A DNA stretch of 17,594 bases from Magnetococcales bacterium (lineage in GTDB: Bacteria; Pseudomonadota; Magnetococcia; Magnetococcales; JADFWU01): NCBI GenBank assembly GCA_015234045.1, contig JADFWU010000057.1, positions 1 through 17,594 of the forward strand, given 5' to 3'. Below the pieces are notes generated by a model, which saw nothing but the letters and a program-made list of their open reading frames with translations, made no database searches and had not been told where the DNA came from. The translations under genes were made by a program, and so were the position numbers. This document shows positions 179 to 10,778 of the stretch, piece by piece; positions within the stretch are counted from its first letter, which is position 1; every line of letters begins with the position of its first letter.

Positions 179-1207
179 TCAAGAGGTGGGTCTGCGTGTT
201 TTTAAAATAAAGGTTCCGGTCTGATCATCCGCCATGGGTGAACTCACCCAACACCCTTCATCCACCAGCGATAACGGCACGTTATGTAACGGCTCTCCGC
301 CATTCAATCGGATGGTCAACTCTTGGCCGGGTGGCATGCTTTCCAGCTTCAATTTGACTTTGACAAAGGTCATCGGACACTGCTCGGTAGTGATATCTAT
401 ACAGGCGGCACCCGCATCATCCTCTTGCCTATCTTCGACAACCTTGTCCGCAACACTACCCTTGCTACAAACCGGGCAATCACCCTGCCTCTCAACAGGA
501 TACGCTTTAAAGGCTGTGTCAAAAGGCGAGAAACACCAACGCTGCCCACGCAATCCTGTACCTAGTCCCATCAACCATTTACACGCTTCAGTGGCCAATA
601 CTGTGCCTACCATTCCGGCTAGCAGACCGGAAAATGGCTCTATGGCAGTCACATTGCCACGCTGTTTAATTCCCTGACAGCGCATGCAGACCGCTTCAGA
701 TTCGACACCCACCAAACTCGCCGCAGCCCATCCACCGTGTTGATCGACCCAGCCGGAAAAGAGTGGAACCCGCTGCTGAATACAGACTTGATCCCATTTA
801 AGAGACAGATCAGCGCTCAGATCCAATACCAGATCCACACTTTTGATCTTATCAATCACATAGTCATCGGAAAGAGGAAGGTCCAAGGCTGAGATCTCAA
901 CCTCTGGATTTACAGCATGAATACGCTGTTTAGCTGAATAGACCACCGGCTGGCCGGCGTGGATGCGTTCATGGATAATGTCACCCGGCAATAAACTATC
1001 TGCAACCCGCGCATCATCCACCAAGGTCAAACGCCCTACACCCGCACCGCCCAGATAAAGCAATGCAGAAGCACCTAACGCACCAACACCCAGCACCATG
1101 ATATGTGCATCCAACAAATGGCGTTGGCCAATCCCACCGATCTCTTTGAGTATAATCTGGCGTGAATAACGCGCCATCTGCTCTGCTGTCAGAACAGCCG
1201 CGCCCAT
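179..1207 (-). CDS. Divergent MoeB/ThiF/HesA-type E1 protein fused to a C-terminal TusA-like domain
   Basis: The protein has 342 residues. Residues 1-250 form an E1-like Rossmann domain: an N-terminal RYSRQI segment (13-18), the nucleotide loop GVGALG (40-45), and zinc-type CMRC (174-177) and CPVC (244-247). Residues 268-340 resemble the TusA/SirA sulfur-relay fold, with CPMT at 277-280 replacing the usual CPxP motif, so Cys277 is the candidate persulfide carrier. The E1 core is unusual. The SNLxRQ block of MoeB is replaced by SLLPGD (71-76), the conserved lysine after GQP is valine, and the E1 cysteine region has no cysteine. Canonical adenylation is therefore doubtful. The start codon overlaps the cysteine synthase stop (TAATG), with an AGGAAC ribosome site 6 bases upstream, so the two genes are likely translationally coupled. 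The domain calls are firm; the role in sulfur transfer or cysteine synthesis is inferred from the operon. Confidence 0.8.
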   Translation of the reverse strand: MGAAVLTAEQMARYSRQIILKEIGGIGQRHLLDAHIMVLGVGALGASALLYLGGAGVGRLTLVDDARVADSLLPGDIIHERIHAGQPVVYSAKQRIHAVNPEVEISALDLPLSDDYVIDKIKSVDLVLDLSADLSLKWDQVCIQQRVPLFSGWVDQHGGWAAASLVGVESEAVCMRCQGIKQRGNVTAIEPFSGLLAGMVGTVLATEACKWLMGLGTGLRGQRWCFSPFDTAFKAYPVERQGDCPVCSKGSVADKVVEDRQEDDAGAACIDITTEQCPMTFVKVKLKLESMPPGQELTIRLNGGEPLHNVPLSLVDEGCWVSSPMADDQTGTFILKTRRPTS

Positions 1208-2136
1208 TACAGTTCCTGAAACAGCTCAGTGGAAAGATAACGCTCGGCAAAACTGGGCAGAATAATCACAAACCGTTTGCCCTGGTACTGTGGCTGATCT
1301 GCAAGCTCTAACGCAGCGGCTACAGCGGCTCCAGACGAGATACCACAGGCGATCCCCTCTTCCCGCGCCATGCGTCGTGCTGTTGTAAAGGCGCGATCAT
1401 CACCCACATTCACCACCTCATCAACCAGATCTTTATCCAAAACCGTAGGAATAAAACCTGCGCCAATCCCCTGAATCTGATGTGGTCCTGGCATACCACC
1501 GGACAGTACCGGTGAATTCTCCGGCTCAATAGCAATCACTCGACAGGCAGGATTACGCGCTTTAAGCACCCGAGCAATACCGGTCAATGTACCACCGGTT
1601 CCCACACCGATCACCACAGCATCCACCTGACCATCGGTATCCGCCCAAATCTCCTCTGCCGTGGTGTCAGCATGGATATCCGGGTTGGCGCTATTTTCAA
1701 ATTGATTAGGCATAAAAGATTTTTTATGCTTTTTCATCAATGCATTGGCACGATCAATCGCACCACGCATGCCGGTTTGTGCTGGCGTCAATTCCACCTT
1801 TGCACCCAACAGCTGGAATAATTTTCTCCGCTCAATGGACATCGACTCCGGCATGGTCAATACCAATTGATAGCCCCGCGCCGCACAAACAAAGGCCAAA
1901 GCGATACCTGTGTTGCCGGATGTTGGCTCAATGATCACTGTGTCCGTGTCAATCTGTCCAGCTGCCTCAGCTTTTTCAATCATGGCCAAACCGATCCGAT
2001 CCTTGACCGATGACATGGGATTGAAATACTCCAGCTTGACAAGAAATTCCGCACTTTTTTCCGCACCTAATCGATTTAAACGAACCAAAGGCGTGCTTCC
2101 AATGGTTTCTGTAATATCTTTGTAAATCCGACCCAT
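1207..2136 (-). CDS. cysK: Cysteine synthase (O-acetylserine sulfhydrylase, CysK/CysM family)
   Basis: This 309-residue PLP enzyme of fold type II normally makes L-cysteine from O-acetylserine and sulfide, or from a protein-bound sulfur donor. Visible motifs are SSVKDR with the PLP lysine Lys45, the substrate loop TSGNT (72-76), the phosphate-binding GVGTGGT (177-183), GISSG near 265-269, and the C-terminal ERYLST signature (298-303). The length is typical of the family. ATG is preceded by TACGGAAA. It lies 44 bases downstream of the short E1 gene and overlaps the E1-TusA gene by one base. Its position between two E1-like proteins and a TusA-like domain suggests sulfur might be delivered by a protein carrier, as in the mycobacterial CysO-CysM pathway, but no ubiquitin-like carrier gene is visible here. 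CysK and CysM cannot be told apart with confidence by eye. Confidence 0.9.
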
Positions 2137-2180
2137 GATATTTTCCGTAAATAATCCTGTTTCAATAACACATGGCCAAG

Positions 2181-2846
2181 TTATTCATGCCCACATCCCG
2201 AACATCCGGCACGACGACGTAAGATCACTTCCCGCCGCCGACCCTGATGAAAATCAATCGTCATGAGACGATTCACCATAGGCTGCCCCTGTCCATGAAT
2301 CAGTTTGGCAACTTCCAGCGCCATCCACCAACCCATCTCACCAACTACCGGACCCAACACACCCTGAGTTCGACATGTCGCCCCCTCTTCATCAGGCGGC
2401 CCATCAAACAAACACCTCAAACACGCGGTTTCATTGGGAAAGATCGTCATAAACTGCCCATGCAATCCCACGACAGCTCCATGTACCAGTGGTATACCTG
2501 TTTTCAATGCGGCATCGTTGGCAGCAAACCGAGTCTGAAAATTATCCGTTCCATCTACAATAACCCGACATCCAGCCGCCTGAGCCGCAATGGCTTCCGG
2601 CGTATCCAAACGTTGCGTTATGGTTTTTATCGACAACGCATCATCGGTTAGCGCACAAAGATGCGAAACCGCACTGGCCGTTTTATCCATCCCCACACTG
2701 GATATGTCATGTAGAACCTGGCGATGCAGGTTGGATAGCGACACCTGATCATCATCCACAATAATCAACTCTGTGATTCCAGCACCCACCAGAGCCAGAG
2801 CAACTGCCGAACCCAGTCCTCCAGCACCGAGCAGTAATACGTCCAA
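2181..2846 (-). CDS. Short MoeB/ThiF/HesA-type E1-like adenylyltransferase
   Basis: The family adenylates the C-terminus of ubiquitin-like sulfur carriers. I chose the TTG at 2846 because a perfect GGAGG (2856-2852) sits five bases upstream. The other candidate, TTG 2858, overlaps that site, and an in-frame TAG at 2879-2877 rules out a longer protein. The product (221 residues) opens directly with [12 protein letters not shown], the first Rossmann strand and glycine loop. It therefore lacks the ~25-35 residue N-terminal segment (RYxRQI) found in MoeB and ThiF. The remaining catalytic features are intact: the acidic VDDD, SNLHRQ (38-43), a lysine at 55, GTDN (99-102), CLRC (142-145), an ATCRTQGV block with Cys158, and CSGC (215-218). 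It follows the Rrf2 gene by about 30 bases. MoeB, ThiF and HesA cannot be separated by eye. Confidence 0.85.
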
Positions 2847-2879
2847 GCGTGCCTCCAAATGGGCTAGAGCAACACACTA

Positions 2880-3341
2880 TTAAATCGAAAAATTAATCCG
2901 ATTGTATACTTCACTCGACACACCCGATCTAAATGCCCGATTACTCAACTCTTCCACTGAAATTTCATCCATCATCACCAAAATCTGTGACTGAAACTCC
3001 AACCAAAGCGGCCGGATAACCGATTTGCCAATAGGTCCATTGGCGACATCATTGGGCAACCCCATTTCTACGTCTTTACTCATATCCATCACCACACGGG
3101 CGATATCACCAACGCTGATTTTGGCGCGTTCACGAGCCAACAAATAACCACCACGCGGACCACGAATCCCCTTTAGGATGCCCGCTTTTACCAAGCGTTG
3201 CATCACCTGTTCAAGGTAGCGCTGAGGCACACCCTGTCGGCTGGTCACATCTCGGATCTGTACCGGCTCTCCACCGGAGTTGTATGCGATATCAACAACC
3301 GCCTCAATGGCATACAACAGTTTTTTGGAAAACTTGAGCAC
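2880..3341 (-). CDS. Rrf2-family transcriptional regulator without cysteines
   Basis: This 153-residue winged-helix protein has the Rrf2 pattern: a LLYAIEAVVDIA-type first helix (8-19), a helix-turn-helix around 27-55 (VTSRQGVPQRYLEQVMQRL), and the wing RGPRGGYLLAR (59-69). The three cysteines that hold the Fe-S cluster in IscR and NsrR are absent, and the protein contains no cysteine at all. It should therefore sense something other than a bound Fe-S cluster, as CymR does through a partner protein. The start is GTG, with AGAAGG upstream. It heads the sulfur operon and is likely its local regulator. An inverted repeat in its upstream region (3362-3373) is a candidate operator. The family call is firm; the target and signal are inferred. 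Confidence 0.85.
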   Translation of the reverse strand: MLKFSKKLLYAIEAVVDIAYNSGGEPVQIRDVTSRQGVPQRYLEQVMQRLVKAGILKGIRGPRGGYLLARERAKISVGDIARVVMDMSKDVEMGLPNDVANGPIGKSVIRPLWLEFQSQILVMMDEISVEELSNRAFRSGVSSEVYNRINFSI

Positions 3342-6102: not shown

Positions 6103-6399
6103 CTATTCTAGTGATTTATAAATTTTTTCCGCATCCATTCTTGTATTAAAAATTGAGGCGATATAAATCACATTTCCATCAACAGAATACAATATTTTAA
6201 AATTATATTTTGATTCAATAATCTCTCTGATATTTTTTATAAATGATTGCTTTCCTGAATATGGATTGTCTTTTAATCTCTCAACAGCCAATGAGATTCT
6301 TTTGAAAACTCGCTGACTGGCTTGCGGATTTATTGAATTTAAATAATCAACCTGATTTTCTAAAAATTCTCTAGCCTCTCTTGAAAACCTAATCTCCAT
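6103..6399 (-). CDS. RelE/ParE-type toxin of a toxin-antitoxin pair
   Basis: The 98-residue product matches the plasmid-stabilisation (ParE/RelE) fold. It opens with MEIRFSREAREFLENQ, followed by a long helical hairpin, LKDNPYSGKQ near residues 52-61, then a C-terminal sheet (YNFKILYSVDGNVIYIASIF) and a short final helix. I chose ATG 6399 over the upstream TTG 6408 because the N-terminus then starts at the first strand and a GGGCG stretch lies nine bases upstream. The gene overlaps the antitoxin 3' end by 11 bases, typical of co-translated pairs. ParE members poison gyrase and RelE members cut mRNA on ribosomes; the sequence alone does not decide between them. Base composition is clearly AT-rich. 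Confidence 0.85.
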   Translation of the reverse strand: MEIRFSREAREFLENQVDYLNSINPQASQRVFKRISLAVERLKDNPYSGKQSFIKNIREIIESKYNFKILYSVDGNVIYIASIFNTRMDAEKIYKSLE

Positions 6400-6634
6400 C
6401 AATATCAACGCCCTTACTTTTGTAAAATTCTCTCATTTCAGCTTCTGTATAGTAATCACCTGCTTTTGCTGACTCCAAAGAATCAAGAGTAAATTGTTTC
6501 TCAAAATCAGTAAGAGGTCTATCATTTTTCTGACTGATCGCCTTTTGGAACAGGTCAATAGCAAACTTGTCAAGGTTAGGTAAGGCTTGTAGTTGCTCTC
6601 CTAGTTCATCAGGAATATTAAGCGTAATATTCAT
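6389..6634 (-). CDS. Antitoxin of the ParE/RelE-type pair
   Basis: This 81-residue protein starts with MNITLNIPDELGEQL, a short strand-then-helix pattern of ribbon-helix-helix-like DNA-binding antitoxins. Its acidic C-terminal half (about 40-81: DFEKQFTLDSLESAKAGD and on) is suited to wrapping the toxin. It precedes the toxin and overlaps it, the standard order, and would autorepress the pair's promoter. A GGTGGTGAG stretch lies just before the ATG. The exact antitoxin family is not recognised; the call depends partly on the toxin next to it. Confidence 0.75.
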   Translation of the reverse strand: MNITLNIPDELGEQLQALPNLDKFAIDLFQKAISQKNDRPLTDFEKQFTLDSLESAKAGDYYTEAEMREFYKSKGVDIDGD

Positions 6635-8775: not shown

Positions 8776-9660
8776 TTAACGATCACTTGCTATCCTTTGT
8801 TGAATCAAATTATAGAGTTTCTGAAAATCATCAGGCTGGTGATGCAGGTCTTTATTAAGCAGCTCTTTAACCACAGCCTTGCAAGCAAACTTCTGGGAAC
8901 ACCAACCAGGATCATCTTGTTTTGGTACTCTAAAACAATCAGTAATCACTTTGTTAAGTATCTTCTTGCCGCTCATCTGATTCTGCCAATCTCCCACTCC
9001 AAACGCTAACTGATCAGACCCACCACTCCATGACTGGAGAATTGCATTAAATGAATCAACGCGCCCACTAACGCCTAATGTGTTCTGCGTCAAATTCAAA
9101 TGTTCTACACACTCTGAAAGCGCTTCTAATCTTTCAATTGCAACCTCTTTACTTGGAAAATCATCAGGGTTACTAAGCAAACTTATCCAGCTTTTCTTAA
9201 GTGACTCACGCATGGAAATGATGACTTGGTTTGCGACATCCAGATAGAGCCGCTGTTGGGCATGTTTTATTATGAGTCTCTCAAGCCCTGCTCTATCAAC
9301 ACCTTTTTTCAAATAGGATGATAGCATCAGATAGTTGGGATCAAGAAAGTAGTTTTCCAACTCACGCTTACGCCAGATCAATAGATTATATTTGTCAGGA
9401 TCGGGAAAACAACGCCATGACTGCTCTACAAAATCATCATCATGATAATCTCTATCCACTAAAAAATAGTAGTTTGGATGTGCAGTTACCAAAGCTTGGG
9501 CAGCATTTTTTATACTGTGAGAAGGGCCTAAAGGCACGATGGAGATGCGTGGGAGTAGTTTCTTAAGAACAGTCGCATCAAGGGAATTATTATCCCCTTC
9601 AACAAACAATTTATGCGCTTGAATCTCACTCCTATTTACACCAAATTGAGCACTTGTCAT
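8776..9660 (-). CDS. DUF4435/TOPRIM-like protein, candidate AriB effector of a PARIS-like system
   Basis: The protein has 294 residues. LFVEGDNNSLD near residues 18-28 gives the acidic EGxxD start of a TOPRIM-like fold, and YFLVDRDYHDDD (65-76) gives the following DxD. KRELENYFLDP (98-108) matches the RxxENY motif of DUF4435 proteins. In PARIS the DUF4435 subunit AriB is a nuclease released from the AriA ATPase upon phage infection and cuts host tRNA. That function is known for the family and inferred here. I chose ATG 9660 because it overlaps the ATPase stop as ATGA and GGCGGA lies nine bases upstream; ATG 9669 would touch that site. The gene is AT-rich compared with the flanking polysaccharide genes. 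An OLD-like nuclease partner of another type is the main alternative. Confidence 0.75.
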   Translation of the reverse strand: MTSAQFGVNRSEIQAHKLFVEGDNNSLDATVLKKLLPRISIVPLGPSHSIKNAAQALVTAHPNYYFLVDRDYHDDDFVEQSWRCFPDPDKYNLLIWRKRELENYFLDPNYLMLSSYLKKGVDRAGLERLIIKHAQQRLYLDVANQVIISMRESLKKSWISLLSNPDDFPSKEVAIERLEALSECVEHLNLTQNTLGVSGRVDSFNAILQSWSGGSDQLAFGVGDWQNQMSGKKILNKVITDCFRVPKQDDPGWCSQKFACKAVVKELLNKDLHHQPDDFQKLYNLIQQRIASDR

Positions 9661-10778
9661 AACACACATTCCGCCACGTTCGATGTACTCACGCTTTGCT
9701 TCAATAATAAACGCTGTTCAGGCTCGACTGCGCCAAAGATATCTTCTGAATGCGTAGCAAGAATATATTGATTATCCGGTGCCAATTCATAAAGTTGCTC
9801 AACAAACTCACGATGCCACTCAGCATTGAGGTGCAATTCAGGCTCATCAATAAAAATTATTTTTGGATTATTAACCGTATGATACCAAATCAGAAAAAGC
9901 GTTGATATAATCTCTTTTTGCCCAGAACTCAAACCATCAAAGGCAAAAGCCTCTCCGCCTTGACTGGGTGTGACACATAATTCAAGCGTGTCATCTGACG
10001 TTGGACGCAATTTCTCTACTGTTCCACCAGCATACATTTTAATAATTGAGTTTAATTTATCCAATGCCTCTTGCGAGTTGATTTCACCTTGCTGAGATAC
10101 TTCAAAAAGACCAGCGCGCCCCATCATCGCGCGAAATACGCTTAATTTAAAAGCACTTATTGCACTCCTCTTATACCCCGCAATATTCATTGGCCCTTTT
10201 TGTTTCTCTTCTTGATTGATCATCATACCCATTGCAGGATTATCTTCTGGCGTCTTTCTATAGCCATGAAAATAGTAACATCCTCCGAGTTGAACTGGAT
10301 CAACCAGACCACCTTTAATAATATTTTCAACCAGGAGATATAGATCAATCTTTTCCTCCTGTTTCTGCAACACCATCTCTCCTATTTTGCCATCATTTCC
10401 CTTAACACGTATCGCACTCTTACGGTTAATTTCAATATCAGAAGTGAGCACTTCATGACCACATCGGAATGAACATACTATGGATAATGTACTCTGATCA
10501 GATTTAATTAGATTACTGAAATAGTTCTGAATATTTGGTAATTTGATATAGTTTGGACGATCAATATCATCATGAATCAAGAGCACCAATATAGAAATGG
10601 CACAAGCCTCCATCACGGAAGTCTTACCAACACCGTTCCGACTTCCCATGACAACAATGTCTGGCTCATTTGGCAACTCTGGTCGAGGAAAAGAGATATC
10701 AAGGCTGTCCAAACACTTAAAATTTGTCAGTTGAATCCGCTCTAGGCGGAGTAATTTTCTTTTGGTATCAATATCCAT
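9657..10778 (-). CDS. AAA/ABC-type ATPase (AAA_21-like), candidate AriA sensor of a PARIS-like system
   Basis: The protein has 373 residues. The N-terminus (LERIQLTNFKCLDSLDISF) is the strand pattern of SMC/RecF-like ATPases. Walker A is GSRNGVGKTS (45-54), the ABC signature is LSSGQKEI (283-290), Walker B is IIFIDEPELHL (307-317), and ATHSED with His343 is the switch region. This is the AAA_15/AAA_21 layout found in OLD, Gabija, retron and PARIS ATPases. The directly overlapping DUF4435 gene narrows it to a PARIS-like pair, where AriA is a multimeric scaffold that holds AriB until a phage anti-restriction trigger is sensed. The gene starts 32 bases after the GT2 stop with a weak ribosome site. 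Two 60-base lines (10141-10200 and 10321-10380) each count 22 G+C, against 31 at 11341-11400 in the GT2 gene. The trigger is unknown. Confidence 0.8.
   Translation of the reverse strand: MDIDTKRKLLRLERIQLTNFKCLDSLDISFPRPELPNEPDIVVMGSRNGVGKTSVMEACAISILVLLIHDDIDRPNYIKLPNIQNYFSNLIKSDQSTLSIVCSFRCGHEVLTSDIEINRKSAIRVKGNDGKIGEMVLQKQEEKIDLYLLVENIIKGGLVDPVQLGGCYYFHGYRKTPEDNPAMGMMINQEEKQKGPMNIAGYKRSAISAFKLSVFRAMMGRAGLFEVSQQGEINSQEALDKLNSIIKMYAGGTVEKLRPTSDDTLELCVTPSQGGEAFAFDGLSSGQKEIISTLFLIWYHTVNNPKIIFIDEPELHLNAEWHREFVEQLYELAPDNQYILATHSEDIFGAVEPEQRLLLKQSVSTSNVAECVL

Follow-up and report, generated by a model that had tools for sequence, protein, structure and literature searches.

A putative bacterial E1 heterodimer from a TusA/CysK operon: a pseudo-E1 may lend its N-terminal arginine segment to a truncated catalytic E1

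The window, the whole 17,594-nucleotide stretch of Magnetococcales DNA analysed here, carries on its minus strand, in this order, coaBC, dut, an Rrf2 regulator, a short E1 gene (E1a), cysK and a second E1 gene fused to TusA (E1b-TusA), after which the contig ends (base 1). The features of interest are the following.

179..1207, minus strand: E1b-TusA, a degenerate E1 with a C-terminal TusA (PF00899 over residues 14-246, PF01206 over residues 270-334).
206..400, minus strand: the TusA domain of E1b-TusA (PF01206, 44.8 bits, cut-off 28.6), with a CPMTFVK motif.
1109..1177, minus strand: E1b residues 11-33, its N-terminal arginine segment, MARYSRQIILKEIGGIGQRHLLD; Arg13 and Arg16 correspond to MoeB Arg11 and Arg14.
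1207..2136, minus strand: cysK, encoding cysteine synthase A and separating the two E1 genes (TIGR01139, 445 bits, which exceeds the cut-off).
2181..2846, minus strand: E1a, a catalytic E1 with the ThiF/MoeB fold that lacks the N-terminal segment; it starts at the TTG at 2846, or alternatively at a TTG at 2858.
2852..2856, minus strand: ribosome-binding site GGAGG, which precedes the E1a TTG at 2846 by 5 nt.
2880..3341, minus strand: Rrf2-family regulator (IscR/CymR-like), the first gene of the sulfur group (PF02082, 97.2 bits).

The original prediction, made from the sequence alone, was that the two E1 proteins have complementary defects and form a catalytic/inactive pair encoded in one operon. 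The genes do share an operon, but they are not adjacent, as cysK (1207-2136) lies between them. E1a (221-225 aa) carries SNLHRQ, the lysine (residue 55 counted from 2846), TDN and the cysteine equivalent to MoeB Cys187, and has zinc cysteines at its end. It matches the ThiF profile PF00899 with 196.6 bits over profile positions 21-236, so that the match begins at position 21. Both the alignment and Pfam thus agree with the prediction that the short E1 starts at the Rossmann strand with its catalytic blocks intact and its N-terminal arginine segment missing. Upstream of its start, two in-frame stops, TAG at 2877-2879 and TAA at 2880-2882 (the rrf2 stop), leave room for an extension of at most about 11 residues, none of which resembles the N-terminal segment; because the stops lie so close, no such segment can be hidden there.

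E1b presents the reverse. Its N-terminal segment reads RYSRQ, with Arg16 aligned to MoeB Arg14, while its core has decayed: SNLQRQ has become DSLLPG, GQPK has become GQPV, and TDN and Cys187 are lost. The alignment bears out the predicted loss of the SNLxRQ arginine, the lysine and the cysteine alongside a retained segment. The structural zinc cysteines are mostly present in E1b in the order-wide alignment, and hence its fold is probably kept. The C-terminus of E1b-TusA, a PF01206 domain with the CPxx motif, places it in the TusA family.

To see how general this pattern is within the order, we surveyed 48 Magnetococcales genomes, 42 of which encode E1a, and compiled residue tables in MoeB numbering from 40 E1a and 39 E1b sequences. 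Aligned to MoeB, all 40 E1a proteins keep the MoeB/ThiF-type Rossmann ATP site, namely G41, D62, D64, S69-N70-L71, R73, Q74, K86, D130, N131 and R135, together with cysteines 172, 175, 187, 244 and 247. None of them has the Arg14 segment, apart from one spurious RHFR in a stop-to-stop frame, and the open frame upstream of E1a is shorter than 25 aa in 17 relatives. In E1b, R11, R14 and Q26 are invariant (39/39), whereas the catalytic ATP site is gone: R73 remains in one sequence, K86 in four, D130 in three and C187 in none. Mean column conservation tells the same story, at 0.01 in E1a versus 0.74 in E1b for the N-terminal segment, and 0.66 versus 0.05 for the ATP loop. In pairwise comparison, E1a sequences share 52% identity on average and E1b sequences about 29%. 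Since the same complementary pattern holds across 40 E1a and 39 E1b proteins, the pair in the window is neither a sequencing error nor a chance event.

The two genes also tend to occur together. Both were found in 39 genomes, E1a only in three, E1b only in two and neither in four (Fisher p = 0.0024, a statistic that ignores phylogenetic relatedness among the 48 genomes). The expected co-occurrence of the homologues was therefore recovered, with E1b present in 39 of the 42 E1a genomes, at times elsewhere in the genome. In six genomes (G002, G003, G004, G013, G016 and G017), E1b lies on a contig of its own, with the arginine segment kept and the core decayed; in G013 this separate E1b is near a contig edge, and in G002 it occurs without E1a. 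The two genomes with E1b only, G002 and G005, are both incomplete. Of the three with E1a only, G025 lacks E1b at a contig edge. In G012 (99% complete) and G035 (77% complete) we did not find E1b although E1a, cysK and TusA are in place, and these two genomes are the main counter-evidence inside the order.

The Rrf2-E1a-cysK-E1b-TusA operon recurs across Magnetococcales: Rrf2 is conserved upstream of E1a, and almost every relative whose locus is intact has cysK between E1a and E1b. Some genomes of the order have TusA joined to E1b, and in many others it is a separate gene. No ThiS/MoaD-like carrier or JAB peptidase was seen beside the operon in the downstream frames inspected in relatives (the window's own contig ends at base 1); both are encoded elsewhere in the window's genome.

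Several loci of that genome bear on these carriers. ThiS is fused to the N-terminus of ThiG (L110, 2891-3874, minus strand), which leaves the ThiS Gly-Gly internal, and ThiS matches inside frames of about 330-370 aa suggest that the fusion is order-wide. A second locus (L111, 137-3708, minus strand) holds the Moco genes mobA, moaC, moaD and moaA, plus a moaE joined to a MogA/MoaB-like part; no canonical MoeB was found in this genome. A third (L109, 896-2133, minus strand) holds a JAB/M67-type peptidase gene beside a LarE-like PP-loop gene.

Outside the order, 398 Pseudomonadota genomes yielded no match to the E1a model above 224 bits, against 302-361 bits for full-length matches inside it. The N-terminal RY-R segment was present in 72 of the 74 best outside matches on GTDB contigs. 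One exception, from a Thiotrichaceae genome (L191), is an E1 that also lacks the segment, and no partner motif was found for it. The other, from a Myxococcales metagenome-assembled genome (L226), encodes a catalytic but truncated E1 (E1x), a TusA-like protein and a second, degenerate E1 (E1y) that carries RYARQ; a cysC-like and a LarE-like frame come next, the latter recalling the LarE-like neighbour of the JAB gene above. A restriction of E1a to Magnetococcales, which fitted the 398 Pseudomonadota genomes, was overturned once this locus led to Myxococcota.

A search of 195 Myxococcota genomes revealed a clear group of E1x orthologues (287-515 bits) in 24 genomes, plus more distant ones. In 38 of the 39 loci examined, an E1x without the segment stands next to a partner that has it. 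E1x keeps R73, K86 and D130 in 35/35 sequences and C187 in 33/35, and the Arg14 segment is found in none of the 35. Conversely, all 35 scored partners carry R14 and Q26, and at the catalytic positions they do not show the conservation seen in E1x, although the alignment of the partners' core is loose. Some partners are strongly reduced, to about 85-125 aa from the motif on; in L311, L315, L316, L317, L319 and L321 this length is about 85-115 aa. For example, the 122-aa partner at L311 matches the ThiF profile in Pfam only at positions 1-52, while E1a begins at profile position 21 and E1x at 18. Several Myxococcota loci have cysK-type neighbours. The remaining locus of the 39 (L313) has Rrf2, TusA, two frames of cysK type and a single E1, which is full-length and has no partner. 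Three Myxococcota genomes also have second E1x/E1y copies (L308, L309 and L310), in which E1x too lacks SNLxRQ and the catalytic Asp; judged by these residues, the second pairs are apparently doubly inactive.

Structural models are consistent with these assignments. The AlphaFold2 monomer model of E1a (pLDDT 93.5) has as its first element a strand at residues 5-10, and its best PDB matches are MoeB (Z 30.8), ThiF, UBA3 and UBA2. The E1b monomer model (pLDDT 82.6) has low confidence in the N-terminal segment (residues 1-22) and the former ATP loop, and its structural matches include MoeB, ThiF, SAE1 and APPBP1. E1a superposes on UBA3 (Z 28.8) and UBA2 (Z 26.8) from their Rossmann start, and E1b on SAE1 (Z 21.1) and APPBP1 (Z 21.2), N-termini included. 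At the level of sequence and monomer models, then, E1a and E1b resemble SAE1-UBA2 and NAE1(APPBP1)-UBA3, in which the active and inactive adenylation domains are likewise separate chains. They differ from these eukaryotic E1s in lacking catalytic-cysteine half-domains and a ubiquitin-fold domain, and in being bacterial and part of a sulfur-metabolism operon with TusA and CysK.

Other known E1 systems share individual traits with the pair. MoeB, ThiF and Uba4 have the fold, catalytic residues and zinc cysteines of the pair, but each of their chains carries both active-site halves, whereas E1a and E1b have one half each, the N-terminal arginine segment being found in E1b only. MoeB, which uses Gly41, Arg73, Lys86 and Asp130 (PMC12355090), is described in reviews as a homodimer, as is ThiF, and Uba4 Arg18 is reported to be given in trans (PMC7527816). 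BilD is, similarly, a bacterial E1 with one inactive and one active adenylation domain; unlike E1a and E1b, which are separate genes with cysK between them, it is a single chain with a Cys domain that activates BilA within the Bil operon (PMC11354881). In the yeast Tcd1-Tcd2 heterodimer, the pseudo-E1 Tcd1, which lacks a catalytic arginine, gives the arginine finger Arg59 to active Tcd2, a contact in trans taken from a structural model; the heterodimer is required for function, and Tcd1 is needed for Tcd2 solubility (PMC13139853). Tcd1 thus serves Tcd2 as E1b would serve E1a, although Tcd1-Tcd2 belongs to the TcdA family, acts on tRNA t6A, and its pseudo-E1 has not shrunk to a short partner. 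Finally, rows 4c-4e of Iyer et al. 2006 list operons that link E1, CysK or SirA/TusA to sulfur assimilation; these rows feature one E1, often with rhodanese, together with ThiS/MoaD and JAB, and describe no E1 pair (PMC1779556). A two-chain E1 from bacteria is not described in the literature that we searched, whose coverage was incomplete, with most subscription papers outside it.

Taken together, we propose that E1a and E1b, encoded in a TusA/CysK sulfur-relay operon, pair up as a bacterial E1 heterodimer, the pseudo-E1 E1b supplying E1a with the N-terminal segment and the arginine in it, and assign this reading a probability of about 0.83. Reciprocal residue loss and retention, co-occurrence, a conserved operon and recurrence in a second phylum are evident from sequence comparison. 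The complementary conservation across 40 and 39 proteins, the co-occurrence and the 38 Myxococcota loci strongly favour the predicted catalytic/inactive pair, and from them we infer a physical dimer with the arginine inserted. Because one set of active-site residues is on E1a and the other on E1b, each heterodimer would have a single active site. E1a would bind ATP and the carrier and perform adenylation, while E1b would complete the MoeB-type dimer and insert its N-terminal segment, with Arg16, into the E1a ATP pocket. TusA would then deliver sulfur, as persulfide, to a ThiS/MoaD-type sulfur carrier whose C-terminal glycine has been adenylated, perhaps with the conserved E1a cysteine as an intermediary; the resulting thiocarboxylate would supply CysK with sulfur for cysteine synthesis, under Rrf2 control. 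TusA is proposed as the sulfur donor because of its operon linkage and because the above rows connect E1 with SirA/TusA and with cysteine synthase (PMC1779556). The heterodimer is much surer than this pathway from TusA through the carrier to CysK, for which we see an even balance of chances.

The contribution of the arginine itself may be modest. MoeB and ThiF reportedly do not depend on their arginine fingers, and TcdA is without one; in yeast, the Tcd1 arginine is likewise reported as non-essential, R59A lowering the product ratio by only 26% (PMC13139853). UBA5 57-404 activates UFM1 with no need of the N-terminal extension (PMC12355090). Given these non-essential arginines and UBA5, E1b may be as important for keeping the dimer intact as for catalysis; its arginine may only tune activity, and the main job of E1b may be to keep E1a in a dimer that is stable and competent.

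A first alternative touches only the pathway and does not conflict with a heterodimer: the pair may be the order's activator of MoaD or ThiS, with an incidental link to cysK. The operon contains no carrier gene, and most genomes have MoaD and ThiS-ThiG without an extra ThiS-type carrier. In G000, which has moaA, moaC, moaE, a MoaD ending in GG, a ThiS-ThiG fusion and a JAB peptidase elsewhere, no canonical or other MoeB/ThiF was found to do this work. However, most genomes also encode a canonical MoeB, and the conserved linkage to cysK, TusA and Rrf2, with cysK-type genes recurring beside Myxococcota pairs, speaks for a cysteine-pathway E1, leaving this alternative plausible but the less probable choice.

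It is unlikely that E1a is self-sufficient, forming, in the manner of the short UBA5 isoform or TcdA, a homodimer that has no arginine finger, with E1b a separate pseudoenzyme such as a TusA-docking scaffold. The activity of UBA5 57-404, the dispensable arginines of MoeB and ThiF and the E1a genes that persist without E1b in G012 and G035 all fit such a homodimer. Yet E1b preserves its N-terminal segment better than any other part as its active site decays, with the reverse in E1a, and the small Myxococcota partners retain the segment and little else. Moreover, many genomes encode TusA on its own, so E1b is more than a carrier of TusA. Less probable still is a pairing of E1a with the full-length canonical MoeB of the same cell, E1b being a decaying remnant. 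A canonical MoeB/ThiF match exists in 39 of 48 genomes and would supply the segment in G012, but in G000 and G017, which are 93-96% complete, E1a and E1b are present and we found no canonical MoeB, and the invariance of R11, R14 and Q26 in 39/39 E1b proteins at about 29% mean pairwise identity does not fit decay. A frameshift or misread start hiding a normal E1a N-terminus, the misread start already discounted in the original prediction on the basis of the GGAGG site and an in-frame upstream stop, is effectively ruled out, as all 40 relatives lack the N-terminus too, many with stops close upstream, and nothing was found in its support.

Regarding the origin of the heterodimer, the word "split" used in the original prediction is misleading. 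E1b spans the whole E1 fold and, in a quick tree with long branches and low certainty, falls nearer the order's canonical MoeB, with E1a elsewhere. This disfavours fission of one E1 gene and makes paralogues with reciprocal loss the likelier origin; by this sequence comparison, E1a and E1b are probably such paralogues and not halves of one gene. In another quick tree, the truncated E1s from the two phyla form one group (SH-aLRT 92), which takes in 20 of 22 E1x. The full-length E1 of L313 adjoins this group weakly (56), and is possibly the ancestral one-chain form. The E1x of L312 and L318 fall outside the group and may represent a second case.

It is likely that these proteins constitute a two-chain E1 family in at least two phyla, whose inactive partner, the donor of the segment and arginine, shrinks to about 100 residues, forming a counterpart of SAE1-UBA2 that works on sulfur carriers with TusA. 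How evolution passed from symmetric MoeB-type homodimers to the asymmetric E1s of eukaryotes, which combine an active with an inactive domain, is a standing question, and the step was apparently taken in bacteria too, in a small sulfur-transfer E1. The possible full-length relative at L313, the intermediate E1b forms that keep the lysine and the extreme forms of about 100 aa provide a comparison series, and E1a/E1b offers a simple test of what a second subunit and its arginine contribute. Current annotation models label both proteins simply ThiF/MoeB.

The window contains two further gene pairs, both on the minus strand. An AAA_15/AAA_21-type ATPase and a gene matching the C-terminal part of PADLOC AriAB (46 bits) overlap at 8776-9669 and 9657-10778, forming a possible PARIS-like (AriA/AriB) defence pair. 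At 6103-6408 and 6389-6634, a ParE-type toxin gene has a probable antitoxin gene just upstream.
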